The translations under genes were made by a program, and so were the position numbers. Below the pieces are notes generated by a model that was not told the DNA's origin, made no database searches, and was given only the letters and a program-made list of their open reading frames with translations. 29,902 bases of DNA from positions 1 to 29,902 of the IMG/VR virus record IMGVR_UViG_3300020456_000223; one strand, 5' to 3'. Positions within the stretch are counted from its first letter, which is position 1; each line of letters begins with the position of its first letter. Source of the stretch: a virus. Positions 9,109-19,368 of this stretch are shown piece by piece.

Positions 9109-9290
9109 CTCTGGCACATGAGAGTTTGGAGAACTATTACCGCACTAATTTTGCGTTGATACAACACCATAAATACTCATTAACAGAGCTAGAAAATATG
9201 ATACCGTGGGAGAGAGAAATTTATATCACACTCCTACAACAATACATTGAAGAAGAAAATTTGAAACATCAGCAGAAGAGTGGCATTTAG
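9102..9290 (+). CDS. Frameshift-encoded extension of gp26 (gp51 position)
   Basis: This 62-codon frame continues gp26 in the -1 frame: QLALAHESLENYYRTNFALI then HHKYSLTELENMIPWEREIY and a charged helix ending KHQQKSGI. Conserved-looking motifs are YYRTNFALIQHHKYSLTELE and MIPWERE. I recall very similar short segments next to gp26 in other cyanophages. The frame has no ATG before 9198, which is already past half of the conserved part, and no convincing ribosome binding site. TTG at 9126 is the only weak alternative start. Expression as a gp26-fusion of 301 aa is therefore preferred. It occupies the place of T4 gene 51 (hub assembly catalyst) but is much shorter than T4 gp51. The stop overlaps the tape measure start. 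Confidence 0.78.
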   Translation, partial: QLALAHESLENYYRTNFALIQHHKYSLTELENMIPWEREIYITLLQQYIEEENLKHQQKSGI

Positions 9291-11013
9291 TAGTCAGGCA
9301 TTCACGGCACCACCAGTAAAACCCAAAATGGGAAGGACAACAGTTTCTTCCTCGATCTTTCGTGGTGGTTCTGCGACTACTAAAATGCCTAAAATGGCAT
9401 TTACTAGTTTTGGAAGAAGAACAAATCCAAATAATCTTCCAAATAAAACAGATTTTGAAGAGACATTAATAGAGACTAATAATTTATTAAGGGACATATC
9501 AAATCAAATTGCTGCTGATTTTGCATATCGTATTGCAGCACAAAAAGAATCAGAGAAGAAGATAAGAGCAGAGACAGAGCAAAAGAGAAGGTCAAGGAAA
9601 GAAGCACTTTTAGAAGGTGGTAAGAAGATTGGCAGAGCAACTTCGAGTGTTATTTCGAAGATAACTGCTCCCGCTAAAAGTTTCTTAGATAAGGTTTTTG
9701 GATTCATAGGATCTGTATTTCAAGGTTTCCTTGCGAGTGAAGCACTAAAATGGTTGGCTGATGAAAAAAATCAAGAGAAAGTAGGAAAAGTTTTTAAATT
9801 CATAGAGAAGAATTGGAAGATACTTCTTGGTATTGCTGGTGGTATTGTTGGTGGTGTTGTAGTAGCAAAGGTAATCAGTAAACTGTACACGATGTTCAGG
9901 ATTACCAGAGGACTTTTACGTCTTATTGGTATTGGTCGTCGTGGTCGTGGTGGAAGTGGCGATACTATACAAGATGGTGGTAAACCAGGACGTGGTGGTC
10001 TATTCAGAAATGCAGCAGGTCAGAGAAGAGGATTTCAAACTCAGAGGTCTGGTGGAAGAACCATCAGACCGATGGATTATAATAAAGCAACAACAAGCAT
10101 TAATCAATTTGCAAGAACAAAAAATCCACTTTCTAAGTTTGTACAAAGACTACAAGTAGTTGGTGGTAGAGGCGCCTCTAATATTTTTAGAAAAATTGGA
10201 TTGAAAGGTGCAGTTAAATTTTTAAGACCACTCTTAAAGAGAATACCATTAGTAGGTGCTCTACTTGATTTTGGTATTTCTTTATTGTTGGGAGAACCAA
10301 TTGGTAGAGCAGCAGCAAAATCAGTGGGTGCTTTGATTGGTGGTATATTCGGATCTGTTCTAGGACCTTTTGGTTCTGTTGGCGGTGCTATTCTTGGTGA
10401 TATGGCTGGTTCTGGAATATATGATTTCTTTGCTGGTATGGGAGGTGCCGAGGGTATGAACTCTGGTGGTATCGTTCCTGGTGGCGGTCCAAATAAAGAT
10501 AGTGTCTTGACTTACCTGACTCCTGGTGAGGGTGTGGTAAAACGTGAGGATATGAGTGATGACAGATTTGGTCCCTTTGTTAAGGATATCATTTATAATG
10601 GTGGATCACTTTATTCAGCAATGGTCTTTGCTCTGAGAAAACTTGAATTTAGTTCTGATCAATTTTTGAATGTCAATAAACAGTTTGGTGAGATGCTGGA
10701 TGATTATACAAATACTATAAAGGCATCGTCACAATCCATAAAACCTTCATCTGGTCCTACTAGGGTCACTCCTCCTCCAACACCATCAGTTTCTCCACCA
10801 CCACCAAGAACAACCACTGGTCTAGTTGAAGATTCACAAAATGATGAGGGTGGTATGAGTTTTATGAATTTGCCACCAATAACTCAAGGAAGTCAAAAAC
10901 AGGGAGCACAAAATGTTCCTGCTGATAATTCATTTGCAAACTACGGTCCAATTGATCTCGCTAATCCTTATCTTGCTTATGTGAAAAAAGAGTTTGGAAT
11001 ACTGGGGAACTGA
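9280..11013 (+). CDS. Tail tape measure protein
   Basis: A 577-aa protein placed right after the tail chaperone, the usual site of the tape measure; T4 gp29 is 590 aa. Seen in order: a basic coiled coil (about 60-112), helical segments, a glycine-rich hydrophobic stretch ILLGIAGGIVGGVVVAKVIS (181-200), a second at about 311-340, and a third at about 347-388 (ALIGGIFGSVLGPFGSVGGA). Next comes the signature GGIVPGGGPNKDSVLTYLTP with GEGVVKRED (396-424), which matches the GxGTxDSxPAMLxPGEFVV motif common in tape measures. The tail end is proline-rich. Tape measures set tail length and are ejected first. The start is GTG 9280, overlapping the previous stop; an in-frame ATG at 9328 is an alternative. 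Confidence 0.8.
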   Translation: MAFSSQAFTAPPVKPKMGRTTVSSSIFRGGSATTKMPKMAFTSFGRRTNPNNLPNKTDFEETLIETNNLLRDISNQIAADFAYRIAAQKESEKKIRAETEQKRRSRKEALLEGGKKIGRATSSVISKITAPAKSFLDKVFGFIGSVFQGFLASEALKWLADEKNQEKVGKVFKFIEKNWKILLGIAGGIVGGVVVAKVISKLYTMFRITRGLLRLIGIGRRGRGGSGDTIQDGGKPGRGGLFRNAAGQRRGFQTQRSGGRTIRPMDYNKATTSINQFARTKNPLSKFVQRLQVVGGRGASNIFRKIGLKGAVKFLRPLLKRIPLVGALLDFGISLLLGEPIGRAAAKSVGALIGGIFGSVLGPFGSVGGAILGDMAGSGIYDFFAGMGGAEGMNSGGIVPGGGPNKDSVLTYLTPGEGVVKREDMSDDRFGPFVKDIIYNGGSLYSAMVFALRKLEFSSDQFLNVNKQFGEMLDDYTNTIKASSQSIKPSSGPTRVTPPPTPSVSPPPPRTTTGLVEDSQNDEGGMSFMNLPPITQGSQKQGAQNVPADNSFANYGPIDLANPYLAYVKKEFGILGN

Positions 11014-11016
11014 TAA

Positions 11017-12564
11017 ATGGCTACAGTACAAATATTAAAGTTAAATGTTGAAAATATAAAAAGTGTTCTCATTTCTGGTAGGAGAAGAGAGCATAAAATA
11101 ATTGCAAGAAAGAACTCTTTAATAAGAAAAGAGCAGCAGAGAGAGAAAAGAATAGAAAAAGAGAATTCTCTTGAGAATTTCAGATTACCAACCTTTGGAG
11201 TTGCTGGACTGGTAAAGAGCACCACCTCAGGTATTTTTGGTGGTTTAATGGGATTCTTAGGCAATATACTTGCTGGTTATATTGTTATAAGACTTCCACA
11301 GATAATTGATAGGGCACAAGAAATATATGAAAACAATATAAAACCAACTTGGGAGAGTGCGACAAAAACACTTGGTACTATATTCAATGGTATAAAATTT
11401 GTATTCACTGGGATTAATAATTTTTTCAACCCAAATGAATCTCAGAAAAATATAGATGAAACTGAAAAAAATATGAAAAATCTCAACAAAGAGATTGATG
11501 ATGATATAAAATTTTATACAGGTATTTTAAAGGCTGTTGGATTTGATGTTTCAATGTTTGAGGAAGAGGAGGATAAAATAGTAAATCTTCCAGATCCATT
11601 AGGTGCTGGTGCTCCACAATCCCAGCAACCAACATCTACATCACCACAGATGAAACCTCAGCAGAGAAATCAAGGTGGTGAAGTTCTCCAAACAAGAATG
11701 CCTAAAGAGGTGCCAGTAGGTGATCCTAATTATAAGAATCCAGGCAGAGCATTTCCAAGGGTTGCTGATAAGAGCCTTGCTAACACTGAGGCATTTAAGA
11801 AAAATGTGGGTAAGTTTGGTGAATTGGTTAAACTCCTGAAGTCCTCTAAGTTTATGGGAAGAAAAGGAGGAGGTGGTAATAATAGATCAGGTGGTGGTTA
11901 TAGTGGTAGTATTGATGCATCAAAAATTAAGGCAGATAGTCCAGAGAAGATGGCATTTATTGCCACAGTCAGGGAGTTAGAAGGAACTGCTGGACCCAAT
12001 GGATACAACACTTGGTTTGGTGGTAGAAGTGATCTTGACCTTTCAAAACTCACAGTCAATCAAGTTGTAGCAGAACAAAAGAGAAGAATTAATAGTGGAG
12101 AGGCAACTTATAATGGTCTGACATCTGCTGCTGTTGGTGCAGGACAGTTTCTCCTTCCAGAAGATACAGTAAGAAGAATGGGATTGAACCCTGCTATTGA
12201 GAAGTACACTCCAGAACTTCAGAACAAAATGATTCTCTTCCAGTCAATGAGTGCTAGGGGTATTGATCCGTCGAAACAACTTTCACTGAGAGATGTGGAG
12301 ATTCTTGGTAGGGAGTGGGCAAGTTTCACACCATATCATGGTCAGACTGGTAGATCAGCGGCAACGAGTTTGAATGTTTATAAGTCTAATCTAAAAGAGG
12401 CAAGAAACCTTGGACCTGTCTCTAATAGTAAAAAGAAAAGTGTTTTGATTGCTGTTCAACCAGTAGTAACAACACAAACTGAGACTGTTCCTGTCGCAGT
12501 TGCATCGGGTGGCAGTCAAGGTACCTTAAATAGTAATAACGGTAATTACTTCGATATCGGATAA
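11017..12564 (+). CDS. Tape-measure-like protein with lysozyme-like domain
   Basis: A 515-aa protein with three parts. Residues 1-55 are a basic coiled coil. Residues 60-140 hold glycine/hydrophobic helices (SGIFGGLMGFLGNILAGYIV) laid out like the N-terminal half of the preceding tape measure. After a low-complexity linker (195-300), residues about 308-462 look like a lambda-R/GH104-type lysozyme: RELEGTAGPNGYNTWFGG with likely catalytic Glu322, AAVGAGQFLL (371-380; lambda has STGAGRYQLL), ELQNKMILFQSMSARGID, and a final WASFTPY segment. It would cut peptidoglycan during tail penetration, a job done in T4 by gp5. The gene lies between the tape measure and the hub. The enzymatic assignment rests on motif similarity only. 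Confidence 0.72.
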   Translation: MATVQILKLNVENIKSVLISGRRREHKIIARKNSLIRKEQQREKRIEKENSLENFRLPTFGVAGLVKSTTSGIFGGLMGFLGNILAGYIVIRLPQIIDRAQEIYENNIKPTWESATKTLGTIFNGIKFVFTGINNFFNPNESQKNIDETEKNMKNLNKEIDDDIKFYTGILKAVGFDVSMFEEEEDKIVNLPDPLGAGAPQSQQPTSTSPQMKPQQRNQGGEVLQTRMPKEVPVGDPNYKNPGRAFPRVADKSLANTEAFKKNVGKFGELVKLLKSSKFMGRKGGGGNNRSGGGYSGSIDASKIKADSPEKMAFIATVRELEGTAGPNGYNTWFGGRSDLDLSKLTVNQVVAEQKRRINSGEATYNGLTSAAVGAGQFLLPEDTVRRMGLNPAIEKYTPELQNKMILFQSMSARGIDPSKQLSLRDVEILGREWASFTPYHGQTGRSAATSLNVYKSNLKEARNLGPVSNSKKKSVLIAVQPVVTTQTETVPVAVASGGSQGTLNSNNGNYFDIG

Positions 12565-13907
12565 TGTCAGCACCAGCAGCAGCACCATCAAAATACGAAA
12601 TATTTCAAATTATCTCTGCCGATGGTAGTAATACTGTTGATCTTTATGATGCACAATTTAGAGTAGTTTCTTTTGATATATTTGAAAATATTCTATCACC
12701 ATATATTACTGGTAGGGTTGTTATTTCATCATCAGGTAGTGCCTCCAAAGAAGAAAAAACAAACAGAATGACATCACTGAGGTCTGGATTACCAGTAACA
12801 TCAGGATGTAAGTTGAAAGTGAAGATTACACCACAACTTGGTAAAACTATTGACTACTCACGGACAGAAAATGATTATACGGTGCTTCATGTAGATAAGG
12901 TAGCAACTGCAAAGGACTCCACATCAGAAATTCTAGAACTTTCATTCACTAGCAACATTGCTATAATGAGTGATACAAAGAGAGTTGTAGAAAGATTTGA
13001 TGCTAGAATTTCAGACTCAGTTACTAATATTATTGAGAACTATCTTGAAGTTGGTTCGGACAGTGTGAATGTAACCGCAACACAAAATAGTTCTTCTTTT
13101 AGTGGTAATCAAAAAAGACCACTAGATTTAATCATTGATATGGCATCAAAGTCAGTGCCAAATGGTAAGGCTGCTAATCCAGGATACTTGTGTTATGAAA
13201 CAATTGGTAAGTTCAACTTTGTTTCCTTTGACACGTTAATTAATCGTGAACCAGAATTCGAATACAATTATAATGGTGTTCTCATAGCGACAGAAGAACT
13301 AAAAGACGAATCAAATAATTTTAAGGCTGCCGAGATGGTAGTCAAGAAGGATAATAACTTACTTGAAAATATTAGGTCTGGTGTGTATGCATCTAAGAGT
13401 ATCTTTTTCAATCCTCTTACGCAAGAATTTACAGAGATTGATATATCAGTTGTTGATGGTAAATTGAGTCAAGATCCTAACTTTGCAACCTTGGGAGAGA
13501 AGGCAAAGACACCTAGAATATTAGAAGAAGGATTTAAAAATAGCAAGAAGATTCATAGAATCAACACTGCTGTTATTGATACTGGTGCTGATAAGGCAAC
13601 GGTTTCTCTTGATGATAAGAACAACGATCCAGAACTTTATATTGCTGCTGTCGGTGTTAGATATAATCTGATGTTCTCACAAAAAGTTCAAGTGACAGTT
13701 CCTTGTAATACTGACTTACATGCTGGATCTAATATCAAGATGATTGTAGAAGATACATCAGAGAATAAAGAACAAGGACCAGATCAAGTCAGAAGTGGTA
13801 AATATATAGTACAGGCATTAAGACATCATTTTGATGGTGAAAGATCTGTCACTTCTATGATGCTCATTCGTGATTCCTATGGACTACACTTTACCAAAAC
13901 AAGCTAA
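12564..13907 (+). CDS. 27: Baseplate hub protein (gp27-like)
   Basis: A 447-aa protein beginning MSAPAAAPSKYEIFQIISAD, with SFDIFENILSPYITGRVVIS, a LRSGLPVTSGCKLKVKITPQ segment and DVDKVATAKDS-like strands (HVDKVATAKDSTSEILELSF). NIIENYLEVGSD and RPLDLIIDMASKSV follow. The C-terminal region LMFSQKVQVTVPCNTDLHAG with GKYIVQALRHHFDGERSVTS resembles the last beta domain of hub proteins. This matches the gp27/gpD hub family, a trimeric ring to which the spike is attached; T4 gp27 is 391 aa. Start and stop overlap neighbours by one base (TAATG at both ends), so it is translated with the lysozyme-tape protein and the OB protein. Confidence 0.75.
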   Translation: MSAPAAAPSKYEIFQIISADGSNTVDLYDAQFRVVSFDIFENILSPYITGRVVISSSGSASKEEKTNRMTSLRSGLPVTSGCKLKVKITPQLGKTIDYSRTENDYTVLHVDKVATAKDSTSEILELSFTSNIAIMSDTKRVVERFDARISDSVTNIIENYLEVGSDSVNVTATQNSSSFSGNQKRPLDLIIDMASKSVPNGKAANPGYLCYETIGKFNFVSFDTLINREPEFEYNYNGVLIATEELKDESNNFKAAEMVVKKDNNLLENIRSGVYASKSIFFNPLTQEFTEIDISVVDGKLSQDPNFATLGEKAKTPRILEEGFKNSKKIHRINTAVIDTGADKATVSLDDKNNDPELYIAAVGVRYNLMFSQKVQVTVPCNTDLHAGSNIKMIVEDTSENKEQGPDQVRSGKYIVQALRHHFDGERSVTSMMLIRDSYGLHFTKTS

Positions 13908-14539
13908 TGTCGGCAGTAAATAATTACGGAAGTAAAGATAATAGATGGATTGGAATAATCCTACCATTTGAGTCACAGAAAGAACAGATGAGTGGTAACT
14001 CTCGTGGCAATAGATATCGTGTTGCCATCATGGGAGTCACACCATTTGTTGGTGGTATCAGAGATGAGGATGTAACATTTGCTGACGTAATGTGTGTTGG
14101 TGGTCTTGGTGGTGGAGGGCATTTTAGAACAGTCAAGTATTCACCAGGAGAAGTTGTAGTAGGATTTTATTGGGATTTCCCTGAGAATCAACAACCAATG
14201 ATAATGGGGGGTGTGGGTAGGACTGCTGGTATCAGGTATGGTTCTGGTAGATTTGATGCCAAGACTGGATTTGTTGGTAGAATAACACCAGGAAATCTTA
14301 TGGGGAGGCATGAGTCTAATGAGCAGAAAAATGATTGTCTTCCATTAGCAAAACCAAGTGGTGATAAATCAATATCAAGAAAAATACCATTTGGTGCGAT
14401 GGGTGATTTGGGTGTAAATAATGCAACTCCAGTAACTAATTCATTTACTTTACCACCAGATAATACTTCTGGTAATACAAGTGCTACTTTTGGTAATCTT
14501 GCACAACCAGCAGCACCTAACTTAGGAGATGCCCTCTAA
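13907..14539 (+). CDS. gp5-like OB-fold spike base without lysozyme
   Basis: A 210-aa protein that looks like the N-terminal OB domain of T4 gp5. RWIGIILPFESQKEQM is followed by GNRYRVAIMGVTPFVGGIRD, then VMCVGGLGGGGHFRTVKYSP, GEVVVGFYWDFPENQQPMIM, GGVGRTAGIRYGSGRFD and GFVGRITPGNLMGR. The order of a short interaction strand, a GxYRVxIxG core strand, a G-x-x-V-x-G-x-Y/F turn and a GG after the last strand is typical of the OB fold that joins the gp27 ring to the needle. There is no lysozyme domain and no beta-helix: the chain ends in a Thr/Pro/Asn-rich tail. Both missing parts seem to be encoded elsewhere, at 11017-12564 and 16060-16608. Confidence 0.75.
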   Translation: MSAVNNYGSKDNRWIGIILPFESQKEQMSGNSRGNRYRVAIMGVTPFVGGIRDEDVTFADVMCVGGLGGGGHFRTVKYSPGEVVVGFYWDFPENQQPMIMGGVGRTAGIRYGSGRFDAKTGFVGRITPGNLMGRHESNEQKNDCLPLAKPSGDKSISRKIPFGAMGDLGVNNATPVTNSFTLPPDNTSGNTSATFGNLAQPAAPNLGDAL

Positions 14540-14542
14540 ATA
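14536..14542 (+). promoter_or_regulatory. T4-like late promoter box (CTAAATA)
   Basis: CTAAATA at 14536-14542 includes the TAA stop of the OB-protein gene and lies 17 bases before ATG 14560. A strong Shine-Dalgarno AGGAGG follows at 14547-14552. Confidence 0.55.
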
Positions 14543-14559
14543 TTACAGGAGGATAATAT

Positions 14560-16056
14560 ATGAGCTGTCACAATACAGATACTAATAACGCTGGTCAAAC
14601 TATCATTCTTGCAGATCCCTGTAAGGATAATTTCTTTGCGGAAACAGAAGCACACTTAGAGAGATTTTTTGATAGAATTACCAAACCAGGTGTTGCTGCA
14701 CTCAACTTATCAAATGACCTGAGACAAACTGCACAACTTATTGCAACTGGTTCTAAGCGATTTATCAATTCAGTCACTGCTTCTTTACGAGATGAACTTG
14801 AAGAGGTAATTAAATCTGGATTATCCTCACTTGCTAATAGTATTATGACTGGAGCAAGTAATCAATTTGAAGCAATGAACAAAGTTATTGGTATACAAGG
14901 GTCTTTAATTGATCCTGTTGAGAAATTATTTTGCGCTGTGTTCTGTGCTGCCACAAAGATAGCAAACTCAATGGTCAATGTAGTTACTGACTTATTAGTT
15001 GGTGCCATGAACAATGCAGTCAATGCTCCTGTCTGTGCTGTTCAAGATTTCATTGGTGCTATGACCAAGAGAATCGTGGATGGTATTGATTCTATTGTTG
15101 GTCCTGTATTGGAACCCATCCAAAAGGTTTTAGAGACAACATTTAAAATCAAGGATTTCATTCTTGGTGCAGTAAATACTATTAGAAAGATTCAGAACTT
15201 CTTTACCTGTGGTGAAGAAATCAAGTGTCGTGCTACCACAAAGTATAAGTTACACACAGGACCTAGAAAGGATGATGATAAGCAAGATGAAAAGTTTAAT
15301 ACAATCTTCAGTGGTACTGCAATTTCAGAAGGAGCGGGTAATTTACTCAACGATTTTGAGAGACAATATGGTAAATGGAATCTGTTTGGGTCTCCTTTAA
15401 GTGAAGCCTCTTCCCTCCAACCCTGCAATTCTGGTAATCCGTTCAAGTGTGGAACGCCCACTGTTGAAATTTTTGGTGGTGATGGATTCAATGCTGCTGC
15501 TGAAGTTATTCTCGGAAGAGTTATAGAAGATGTAGACACAGAGGACATCGTAGGTGGTATTGAGAGAACTGCTAGTATCGTTGGAGTAAAGATAACTAAT
15601 CCTGGTGCTGGATACACCAGAGCACCTCTGGTAGCATTCACAGACAGTTGTAATAGAGGATATGGTGCCTATGGTAGAGCAAACATTGATGTGATACCTA
15701 CATCACCTACCTATGGTCAAGTTACCAGTATCTCTATCATTAGTGAGGGTGAGAACTATCCTGCTGGTGACCAAGAACCTGTCTATCTTGTTGATGTTGT
15801 TGTTGACGATGGTGGACAAGACTATGCTGATACAGATACGCTAGTTGCGAAGCATTGTGGTGACCTAACTATTGTTGATGGTCGCATTACTAAGGTCAAC
15901 GTTACTAATCTATGTCGCTTTGATGACCTAGCAGACCTTACTATCAATAGTGAGACTGGTTTTGGTGCTGTATTGAGACCCATTATGTCTACCGACATAC
16001 CACCTGTTCTACAGGGCGAACTTGTAGAAGTAATTGACTGTATATACCCGAAATAA
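14560..16056 (+). CDS. Virion structural protein, probable tail/baseplate (498 aa)
   Basis: Preceded by the best ribosome binding site in the cluster (AGGAGG, 7 bases before ATG), suggesting strong expression. Residues 1-230 are predicted helical, with NLSNDLRQTAQLIATGSKRF and LCAVFCAATKIAN-like small-residue helices (KLFCAVFCAATKIANSMVNV). A charged linker follows (GPRKDDDKQDEK). The C-terminal part is beta-rich with two or three similar modules: VKITNPGAGYTRAPLVAFTD, ISIISEGENYPAGDQEPVYL and VVVDDGGQDYADTDTLVAKH, a pattern x-I-x-x-x-G-x-x-Y that I know from phage tail-surface proteins. At least ten cysteines are present, many for a cytoplasmic protein. It lies between spike base and needle. 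I do not know a T4 counterpart, so tail tip or short-fibre roles are inferred. Confidence 0.72.
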   Translation: MSCHNTDTNNAGQTIILADPCKDNFFAETEAHLERFFDRITKPGVAALNLSNDLRQTAQLIATGSKRFINSVTASLRDELEEVIKSGLSSLANSIMTGASNQFEAMNKVIGIQGSLIDPVEKLFCAVFCAATKIANSMVNVVTDLLVGAMNNAVNAPVCAVQDFIGAMTKRIVDGIDSIVGPVLEPIQKVLETTFKIKDFILGAVNTIRKIQNFFTCGEEIKCRATTKYKLHTGPRKDDDKQDEKFNTIFSGTAISEGAGNLLNDFERQYGKWNLFGSPLSEASSLQPCNSGNPFKCGTPTVEIFGGDGFNAAAEVILGRVIEDVDTEDIVGGIERTASIVGVKITNPGAGYTRAPLVAFTDSCNRGYGAYGRANIDVIPTSPTYGQVTSISIISEGENYPAGDQEPVYLVDVVVDDGGQDYADTDTLVAKHCGDLTIVDGRITKVNVTNLCRFDDLADLTINSETGFGAVLRPIMSTDIPPVLQGELVEVIDCIYPK

Positions 16057-16059
16057 GAT

Positions 16060-16608
16060 ATGGCTAATCAAGAAGGACAAGTATGTGAATCATACGGACC
16101 AAAACTTTTATTATCCACTGGAAATACTAATCAAGGTGTAGGTGGTCCAGAAGCAGCATCTATAAAGATGACCAATGATGCTATGGAGAGAGTCACTTTC
16201 AAACACCTAGAGTCTGGTTTAACAAGACTTGAAGCAGAAAATACATTTGAAGTTACCGTAGGTGAAAAAGCAGGTGAAGGAACTACGATAGAAATTAATG
16301 TACTAAACGGTGATATTGATATTAATGTAAGAAATGGTCATCTAGGTTTGAAAGGACCTAATATTACTTTGGATGCTTCTGATTCTATTGTAATGAAGGC
16401 ATCAAAGATTCAGATTGGTGATGAGAAACAAACTCAACAGGTTGTTATTGCTGGTCAAAAAACAGAGGTAAAATCAAAGAAAGGTAATCTTGCAGCAGCA
16501 ATCAAGACAGATTCAGTTCTTACATCCTTTGCTGGTTCTTTCGTAAGTGATACTGTAGAAGAACTTATAGGTGCTGCTGCTGGTAAACCAGGCGGAGGTA
16601 GTTGCTAA
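16060..16608 (+). CDS. Beta-helix needle-like protein (gp5 C-terminal type)
   Basis: A 182-aa protein whose middle (about 85-127) is a run of eight-residue strands: VLNGDIDI, NVRNGHLG, LKGPNITL, DASDSIVM, KASKIQIG. This octad pattern fits the triple-stranded beta-helix of the T4 gp5 needle and VgrG/gpV spikes. The N-terminal part is mixed, and the C-terminus is Ala/Gly-rich and ends PGGGSC. It would trimerise into the membrane-piercing shaft under the hub. In T4 this module is fused to gp5; here it is a stand-alone gene two positions downstream of the OB protein. A PAAR-type tip protein is not recognised nearby. The stop overlaps the next start (TAATG). Confidence 0.68.
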   Translation: MANQEGQVCESYGPKLLLSTGNTNQGVGGPEAASIKMTNDAMERVTFKHLESGLTRLEAENTFEVTVGEKAGEGTTIEINVLNGDIDINVRNGHLGLKGPNITLDASDSIVMKASKIQIGDEKQTQQVVIAGQKTEVKSKKGNLAAAIKTDSVLTSFAGSFVSDTVEELIGAAAGKPGGGSC

Positions 16609-19140: not shown

Positions 19141-19212
19141 GGGAGTGTCGCATAAAGGTTAATGCGCCCTGCTTATAACGGGGTCATCCGGGTTCAATTC
19201 CCGGCATTCCTA
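19141..19212 (+). tRNA. tRNA-Ile (anticodon UAU)
   Basis: A cloverleaf can be drawn: acceptor GGGAGTG/CATTCCT (with G-U pairs), D stem GCAT/ATGC, anticodon stem CCCTG/CGGGG around loop CTTATAA, a 4-base variable loop, T stem CCGGG/CCCGG with loop TTCAATT, discriminator A. The anticodon TAT reads AUA. CCA is not encoded. Confidence 0.85.
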
Positions 19213-19214
19213 TC

Positions 19215-19287
19215 GCTCCTTTAGCAATCTGGTGAATGCACCGAACTCATAATTCGGCTGAGGTGAGTTCGATCCTCACAAGGAGCA
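19215..19287 (+). tRNA. tRNA with CAU anticodon (Met, or Ile2 if lysidine-modified)
   Basis: Perfect acceptor stem GCTCCTT/AAGGAGC, D stem GCA/TGC, anticodon stem CCGAA/TTCGG with loop CTCATAA, variable loop CTGAG, T stem GTGAG/CTCAC with loop TTCGATC, discriminator A. The CAT anticodon fits elongator Met. Sequence alone does not exclude a lysidine-modified Ile tRNA. CCA is not encoded. Confidence 0.88.
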
Positions 19288-19291
19288 CCTT

Positions 19292-19364
19292 GCCCGTATA
19301 GTCCAACGGCAGAGACAGAGGACTTAAAATCCTTCCAGTGTCGGTTCGAATCCGACTACGGGTA
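19292..19364 (+). tRNA. tRNA with UAA anticodon (Leu) and short variable loop
   Basis: Acceptor GCCCGTA/TACGGGT, D stem GTC/GAC, anticodon stem GAGGA/TCCTT with loop CTTAAAA (anticodon TAA, reading UUA), variable loop CCAGT, T stem GTCGG/CCGAC with loop TTCGAAT, discriminator A. Bacterial tRNA-Leu normally has a long class II variable arm; here it is only five bases. CCA is not encoded. Confidence 0.82.
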
Positions 19365-19368
19365 TAAA

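Follow-up and report, generated by a model that had tools for sequence, protein, structure and literature searches.

Introduction

The cell-puncturing device of phage T4, gp5-gp27, carries an OB fold, a lysozyme and a triple beta-helix in one gp5 chain (1K28; PMC3004832). Muralytic domains are also known on tape-measure proteins (TMPs), namely T5 pb2, the TM4 TMP and the phiIPLA35 TMP (reviewed in PMC6116005). In the cyanophage A-1(L), the hub protein gp15 (8kea) bears endoglucanase and peptidase domains that were reported to be active, and a lysozyme-like domain for which activity was not reported (PMC10966104). The cyanophages S-SCSM1 and S-CREM2 contain a pair of virion-associated 'endolysins' that their authors did not treat as tape-like tail components (PMC9602691, PMC10665884).

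Here we analyzed a viral DNA stretch of 29,902 nucleotides (hereafter the window) and compared it with these systems. The window resembles T4 gp5-gp27 in the order of its parts: an OB-fold protein adjoins the gp27-like hub, and after it come a middle part and what is probably the C-terminal needle. It differs from T4 in that these spike parts are encoded by three genes, the predicted helical/beta middle part lacks a lysozyme, and the muralytic domain belongs to another family and is found on another protein. This domain is similar to the lambda R endolysin (GH104; 1am7, 3d3d) in predicted fold, in profile match and in an EGT motif with the catalytic Glu, but lambda R acts in lysis as a free enzyme, whereas the window domain is part of a tail-operon protein. 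As in the T5, TM4 and phiIPLA35 TMPs, a peptidoglycan-cutting domain would be borne by a tape-like tail protein; those phages have long non-contractile tails, whereas the tail here is T4-like and contractile, with two paralogous tape-like proteins, either of which may carry a cassette. Cyanophage A-1(L) shares with the window a contractile tail, a spike without lysozyme and lytic domains on another tail-tip protein, and the lysozyme-like domains match each other. However, the A-1(L) lytic domains lie on the hub itself, and the window domain is encoded by the gene just before the hub. The S-SCSM1 and S-CREM2 'endolysins' are orthologous to the tape-like pair of the window but belong to other enzyme families. 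Our best explanation, to which we assign a probability of roughly 0.7, is that the virion wall-cutter is the GH104-like domain on the second tape-like protein, where it forms an exchangeable cassette, and that the spike is free of enzyme.

Gene order of the window

Homologues of gp53, gp48, gp2 and gp4 are encoded on the minus strand of this 29.9-kb virus record. They are followed by gp26, a 577-aa tape-like protein 1 (T577), a 515-aa tape-like protein 2 (T515), the gp27-like hub, the OB-fold protein, a 498-aa protein, the needle-like protein and the fibres; all window coordinates given below for tail genes and their parts refer to the plus strand. The synteny of gp53-gp48-gp2-gp4 and of gp26-gp51-tape1-tape2-gp27-gp5 was the same in P-SSM2, S-CAM9, S-SRM01 and other phages, and the nearest named record for several window proteins was AG-345-L05, a single-cell virus. 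By its gene order, the window appears to be part of the genome of a T4-like marine myovirus, closest to the Kyanoviridae. The gp27-like baseplate hub (12564..13907) matched phrog_350 (tail protein, 5.6e-76) and is syntenic with the gene annotated as 'tail protein' or 'baseplate central spike' in isolates. Three tRNA genes (Ile-TAT, Met-CAT and Leu-TAA; window 19141-19365) are located between the structural genes and a fibre gene.

A lambda-R/GH104-like lysozyme domain on T515

T515 (11017..12564), the carrier of the cassette, is an ORF flanked by T577 and the gp27-like hub, as it also is in relatives. Searches of Pfam, NCBIfam and the PDB with the single T515 sequence or its domain returned nothing useful, and the domain was recognised only through family profiles and a structure model. 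Viral contigs were scanned for it, which yielded 47 loci, and a 37-member alignment was built. The resulting family profile matched lambda lysozyme (1am7/3d3d) with E ~2e-7 and the A-1(L) hub (8kea) with 6e-4, and phrog_90 'endolysin' was matched by the window domain (8.9e-17) and by every aligned member. The AlphaFold model of the domain had a pLDDT of 92.5. With this model, Foldseek gave 3d3d and 1am7 as the top two matches (TM 0.65-0.70, probability 1.0) and the A-1(L) baseplate structure as the third, and no T4-lysozyme entry was among the listed matches. Glu322 (codon 11980-11982) was invariant in 37/37 aligned relatives, and the profile-PDB alignment places it on the EGT motif of lambda lysozyme. 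By profile and predicted structure, T515 residues ~308-462 are a lambda-R/GH104-like lysozyme-fold domain, in good agreement with an earlier note on this DNA, which had proposed such a domain at residues 308-462. The domain is putatively catalytic, the activity expected of GH104 being that of a lytic transglycosylase. The A-1(L) lysozyme-like domain, for which no activity was reported, indicates that the fold is no guarantee of activity in T515.

The full cassette spans residues 305-468 (11929..12420) and is absent from the counterparts in two related loci, L061 and L062. Upstream lies a conserved scaffold (residues 1-275; 11017..11841) with 57% identity to L061 and 38% to L062. Downstream lies a conserved C-terminal tail (residues 476-515; 12442..12561) with 61% identity to L061, where the cassette upstream differs. 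The earlier note had placed the lysozyme at the T515 C-terminus; the domain is indeed near it, but the extreme end is formed by the conserved tail.

The T515 homologues of L019-L023 have one more domain on the C-terminal side of the lysozyme; it contains a conserved GSEYRPGDPGWHGANLAIDVPG stretch and is possibly another hydrolase. The same GH104-like domain was also observed in the T7-like cyanopodovirus S-RIP1, as the C-terminal part of a 787-aa protein (L002:5129-7492) whose gene directly precedes two internal virion protein genes.

Exchange of the lytic domain among relatives

Identity between L061 and the window was 99% for gp26, 92% for the hub, 88% for the OB protein and 91% for the 498-aa protein, as against 57% for the T515 scaffold and 61% for the T515 tail. 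The L061 homologue of T515 aligned to the window protein at residues 4-275 and 476-515 only, its central domain being unrelated, and DNA similarity between the two ended near 11.7 kb and was back at 12487. The L061 central domain is of a His/Cys type with an HND..GTAGC motif and also occurs in L067, L068 and L107. Its assignment as a YkuD-type L,D-transpeptidase, considered for its motif likeness, was not retained, as profile searches of Pfam, NCBIfam, PHROG and the PDB gave no match in its favour. In L062 (gp26 93%), a PF07486 Hydrolase_2 domain (SleB-type, 8.8e-11) was detected at the lysozyme position. The L014 lysozyme is 72% identical to that of the window, yet the scaffold carrying it is only 26% identical, and in other loci the window-type lysozyme was found on tape-like protein 1.

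Among 80 gp26 neighbours, the T515 homologues carried M23, SleB-type, VanY or HND..GTAGC domains, or no cassette; no recognised cassette was present in the homologues of L083, L141 and P-SSM2. On the two tape-like proteins of isolates, the cassettes comprised glucosaminidase and VanY in S-SCSM1, GH19 and phage lysozyme in S-CREM2, and Phage_lysozyme2 in Sf-FP1. In several loci the M23 cassettes had a reversed motif order, with HxHxE ~47 aa ahead of HxGxD (L073:9196-10872, L092:6763-8274, L113:2750-4351, L128:3787-5400, and others). In hhalign comparisons, these cassettes aligned to canonical M23 with its halves in exchanged order, an apparent circular permutation. These alignments show the lytic domain to be a cassette: phages exchange it among themselves, always at one site of a scaffold that is itself conserved. 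A glycosidase, a peptidase or a hydrolase of the amidase type can therefore be borne by the same tail architecture. The choice of cassette probably matches host wall chemistry. The literature searched contained no account of such cassettes being exchanged at this locus, most subscription journals being outside its reach.

The lysozyme-like cassette could instead be a structural or binding remnant without catalysis, with wall passage left to another activity. Such a role would fit the close structural match to 8kea, in which activity was reported only for the other two domains, and the existence of T515 homologues without a recognised cassette. It is nevertheless unlikely in view of the invariance of Glu322 and of the swaps with unrelated, mostly hydrolase-family domains, which suggest that catalysis is the property under selection.

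The tape-like pair and its orthologues in virions

T577 (9280..11013) is syntenic with tape-like protein 1 of relatives and matched the tape measure family phrog_167 (1.8e-7), a match that was not obtained for T515, so that the pair is only weakly assigned as tape measure. It also gave partial matches to long cyanophage 'endolysin' families in PHROG, and no lytic domain was recognised in it. The two proteins have an N-terminal module in common (hhalign 93.6%, E 2e-7), and they are paralogues whose genes directly precede that of the gp27-like hub, T515 being the second. Several loci (L043, L047, L074 and L077) have three tape-like genes instead of two.

Both tape-like orthologues of S-SCSM1 (ORF213/214) were detected in virions by mass spectrometry (PMC9602691). 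In S-CREM2 virions, the two orthologues were represented by 73 and 71 unique peptides, comparable to the 73 unique peptides of the tail tube protein (PMC10665884). The authors of both studies class the pair as non-structural 'endolysins' (PMC9602691, PMC10665884), databases give the same name to T515 orthologues, and lambda R itself is a lysis endolysin. T515 might on these grounds be an endolysin of late lysis, joined to a helper region and carried in virions as a contaminant, the spike entering either without an enzyme or with an unrecognised one. We regard this as improbable, given that T515 has a fixed place in the structural operon, with gp51 on one side and the gp27-like hub on the other, that it shares a scaffold with its tape-like neighbour, and that peptide counts in S-CREM2 virions are on a par with the tail tube protein.

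Spike proteins without a recognised lysozyme

The cyanophage gp5 family phrog_1922 covers both the OB protein (13907..14539; positions 20-123, 1e-14) and the 498-aa central spike protein (14560..16056; positions 201-658, 7e-60). The OB protein, corresponding to the N-terminal spike part (gp5-N), also matched phrog_33098 and, weakly, 9f4a, a 576-aa baseplate central spike chain (E 0.05); the OB region of relatives matched Pfam Gp5_OB in three of the eight Kyanoviridae gp5s scanned. The AlphaFold model of the 498-aa protein (pLDDT 64) consists of long helices (25-211) and a beta-rich region (301-477). At this moderate confidence, the model had no significant fold match in the PDB and no lysozyme fold. 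Pfam and NCBIfam contained no lysozyme family matching the OB, 498-aa or needle proteins of the window, and the eight Kyanoviridae gp5s and two needle-position proteins, mostly annotated 'tail lysozyme', likewise had no Pfam lysozyme family. Proteins named 'baseplate hub subunit and tail lysozyme' without a Pfam lysozyme include those at L005:11784-14042, L008:15259-18018, L009:13885-17876 and L010:13221-15068, among others.

The order of the OB, 498-aa and needle proteins parallels that of the OB, lysozyme and beta-helix parts of T4 gp5, with the 498-aa protein at the position of the lysozyme. This collinearity, together with several invariant Cys residues and the family name 'baseplate hub subunit and tail lysozyme', would be compatible with the 498-aa protein being an unrecognised hydrolase and the spike retaining a mid-position enzyme as in T4. 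The missing Pfam, NCBIfam and PDB fold matches, the last from a model with a pLDDT of only 64, argue against such an enzyme, and the 'tail lysozyme' name of Kyanoviridae gp5 seems to have been transferred from T4 gp5; we consider a hydrolase here very unlikely.

OB and 498-aa proteins are encoded by one gene in P-SSM2, S-SKS1, ACG-2014f and other phages. Across the loci examined they were fused in 22 and separate in 29, many of the latter being near-duplicates. Since the two together form a single 'gp5' in the fused relatives, the spike of the window would consist of the OB, 498-aa and needle proteins. That the two ORFs lie in different frames in the window and are fused elsewhere could point to a single gp5 gene interrupted by a frameshift or by faulty assembly, but this was ruled out. 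A strong AGGAGG ribosome-binding site (14547..14552) is located 7 nt ahead of the ATG of the 498-aa gene, and L061 and L062 share both this motif and the boundary; the split also recurs in eight independent contigs (L061, L062, L068, L077, L092, L113, L128 and L141). Both observations indicate a genuine gene boundary.

The 182-aa needle-like protein (16060..16608) matched phrog_3363 (1.4e-15) and DUF3540 (E=0.0016, below the family cut-off). One needle-position protein of a relative gave weak matches to DUF2345 and DUF3540. The hydrophobicity spectrum of the window needle showed an 8-residue periodicity that was not above shuffles (219/500), and a beta-octad fold is plausible for this protein. 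The needle is a separate gene in the window and across the relatives examined.

The ORFs of 11017-16608 listed in the earlier note were recovered at the same positions, and its description of an OB protein and a stand-alone needle-like protein without recognisable lysozyme was confirmed. None of the outcomes that the note named as contrary to it was observed, the 182-aa protein being compared at the level of sequence. In contrast, its interpretation that the T4 gp5 spike was split into three genes, with the lysozyme moved to a tape-like protein, needs revision. The 498-aa protein, the larger part of cyanophage gp5, had been overlooked. From the loci compared, only the separation of OB and 498-aa proteins appears special to a sub-lineage, the rest of the layout, including the separate needle, being family-wide. 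The T515 domain is lambda-R/GH104-like and not T4L-like, with no T4-lysozyme entry among its listed matches, and is one of many interchangeable cassettes; hence it was not relocated from gp5.

Proposed mode of wall penetration

The only muralytic domain recognised in 11017-16608 is on a tape-like protein, with none in the spike components, as the earlier note had maintained. T515 probably sits inside the tail tube; both this position and the timing of its release are modelled on the known muralytic tape-measure proteins (PMC6116005). The spike (OB, 498-aa and needle proteins) would pierce the outer membrane mechanically, without a lysozyme of its own, and upon sheath contraction the tube would cross the outer membrane behind it. 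The tape-like proteins would be retained in the tube, above the hub, until the spike has passed and would then leave it, and the T515 lysozyme would reach and cut the peptidoglycan as part of ejection. Such a sequence would support the earlier suggestion that a tape-borne muralytic domain should alter how and when the wall is cut.

A more far-reaching and tentative proposal, which we hold to be possible but the less probable outcome, is a two-component tape in T4-like cyanophages. Two, and sometimes three, paralogues sharing the N-terminal module would each be able to carry their own exchangeable cassette and would be co-ejected, cutting two different peptidoglycan bonds one after the other. 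Exchange across unrelated enzyme folds, including circularly permuted M23, would make this a site of fast adaptation to host range or wall type, the spike enzyme having been lost family-wide.

Tape-borne lysins themselves are known; what appears new here is a T4-like tail in which the lytic domains form an exchangeable set and the spike is apparently free of enzyme. Divergence of gp5 has been read as host cell wall adaptation in at least one study (PMC7029224). No lysozyme domain was found in the gp5s of our scan, and the candidate enzymes are on the neighbouring tape-like proteins and change faster than the surrounding tail. This would correct the widespread 'tail lysozyme' annotation of Kyanoviridae gp5 and makes the tape-like genes candidates for a host range set by wall type, in viruses that are very abundant in the ocean. 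The locus is also a natural collection of lytic domains that are interchangeable on a common scaffold.

Size of the tape-like pair and tail length

The orthologous tape-like pair ranged in size from 306/361 aa to 1788/1971 aa, a spread that seems greater than that of tail lengths and counts against a tape-measure role. The pair measured 933+722 aa in S-N03 (tail 138 nm), 950+1131 aa in S-SCSM1 (173 nm) and 1565+1456 aa in S-CREM2 (L143:6484-15555; 418 nm). Over these three phages only, tape-pair length and tail length showed an upward trend.
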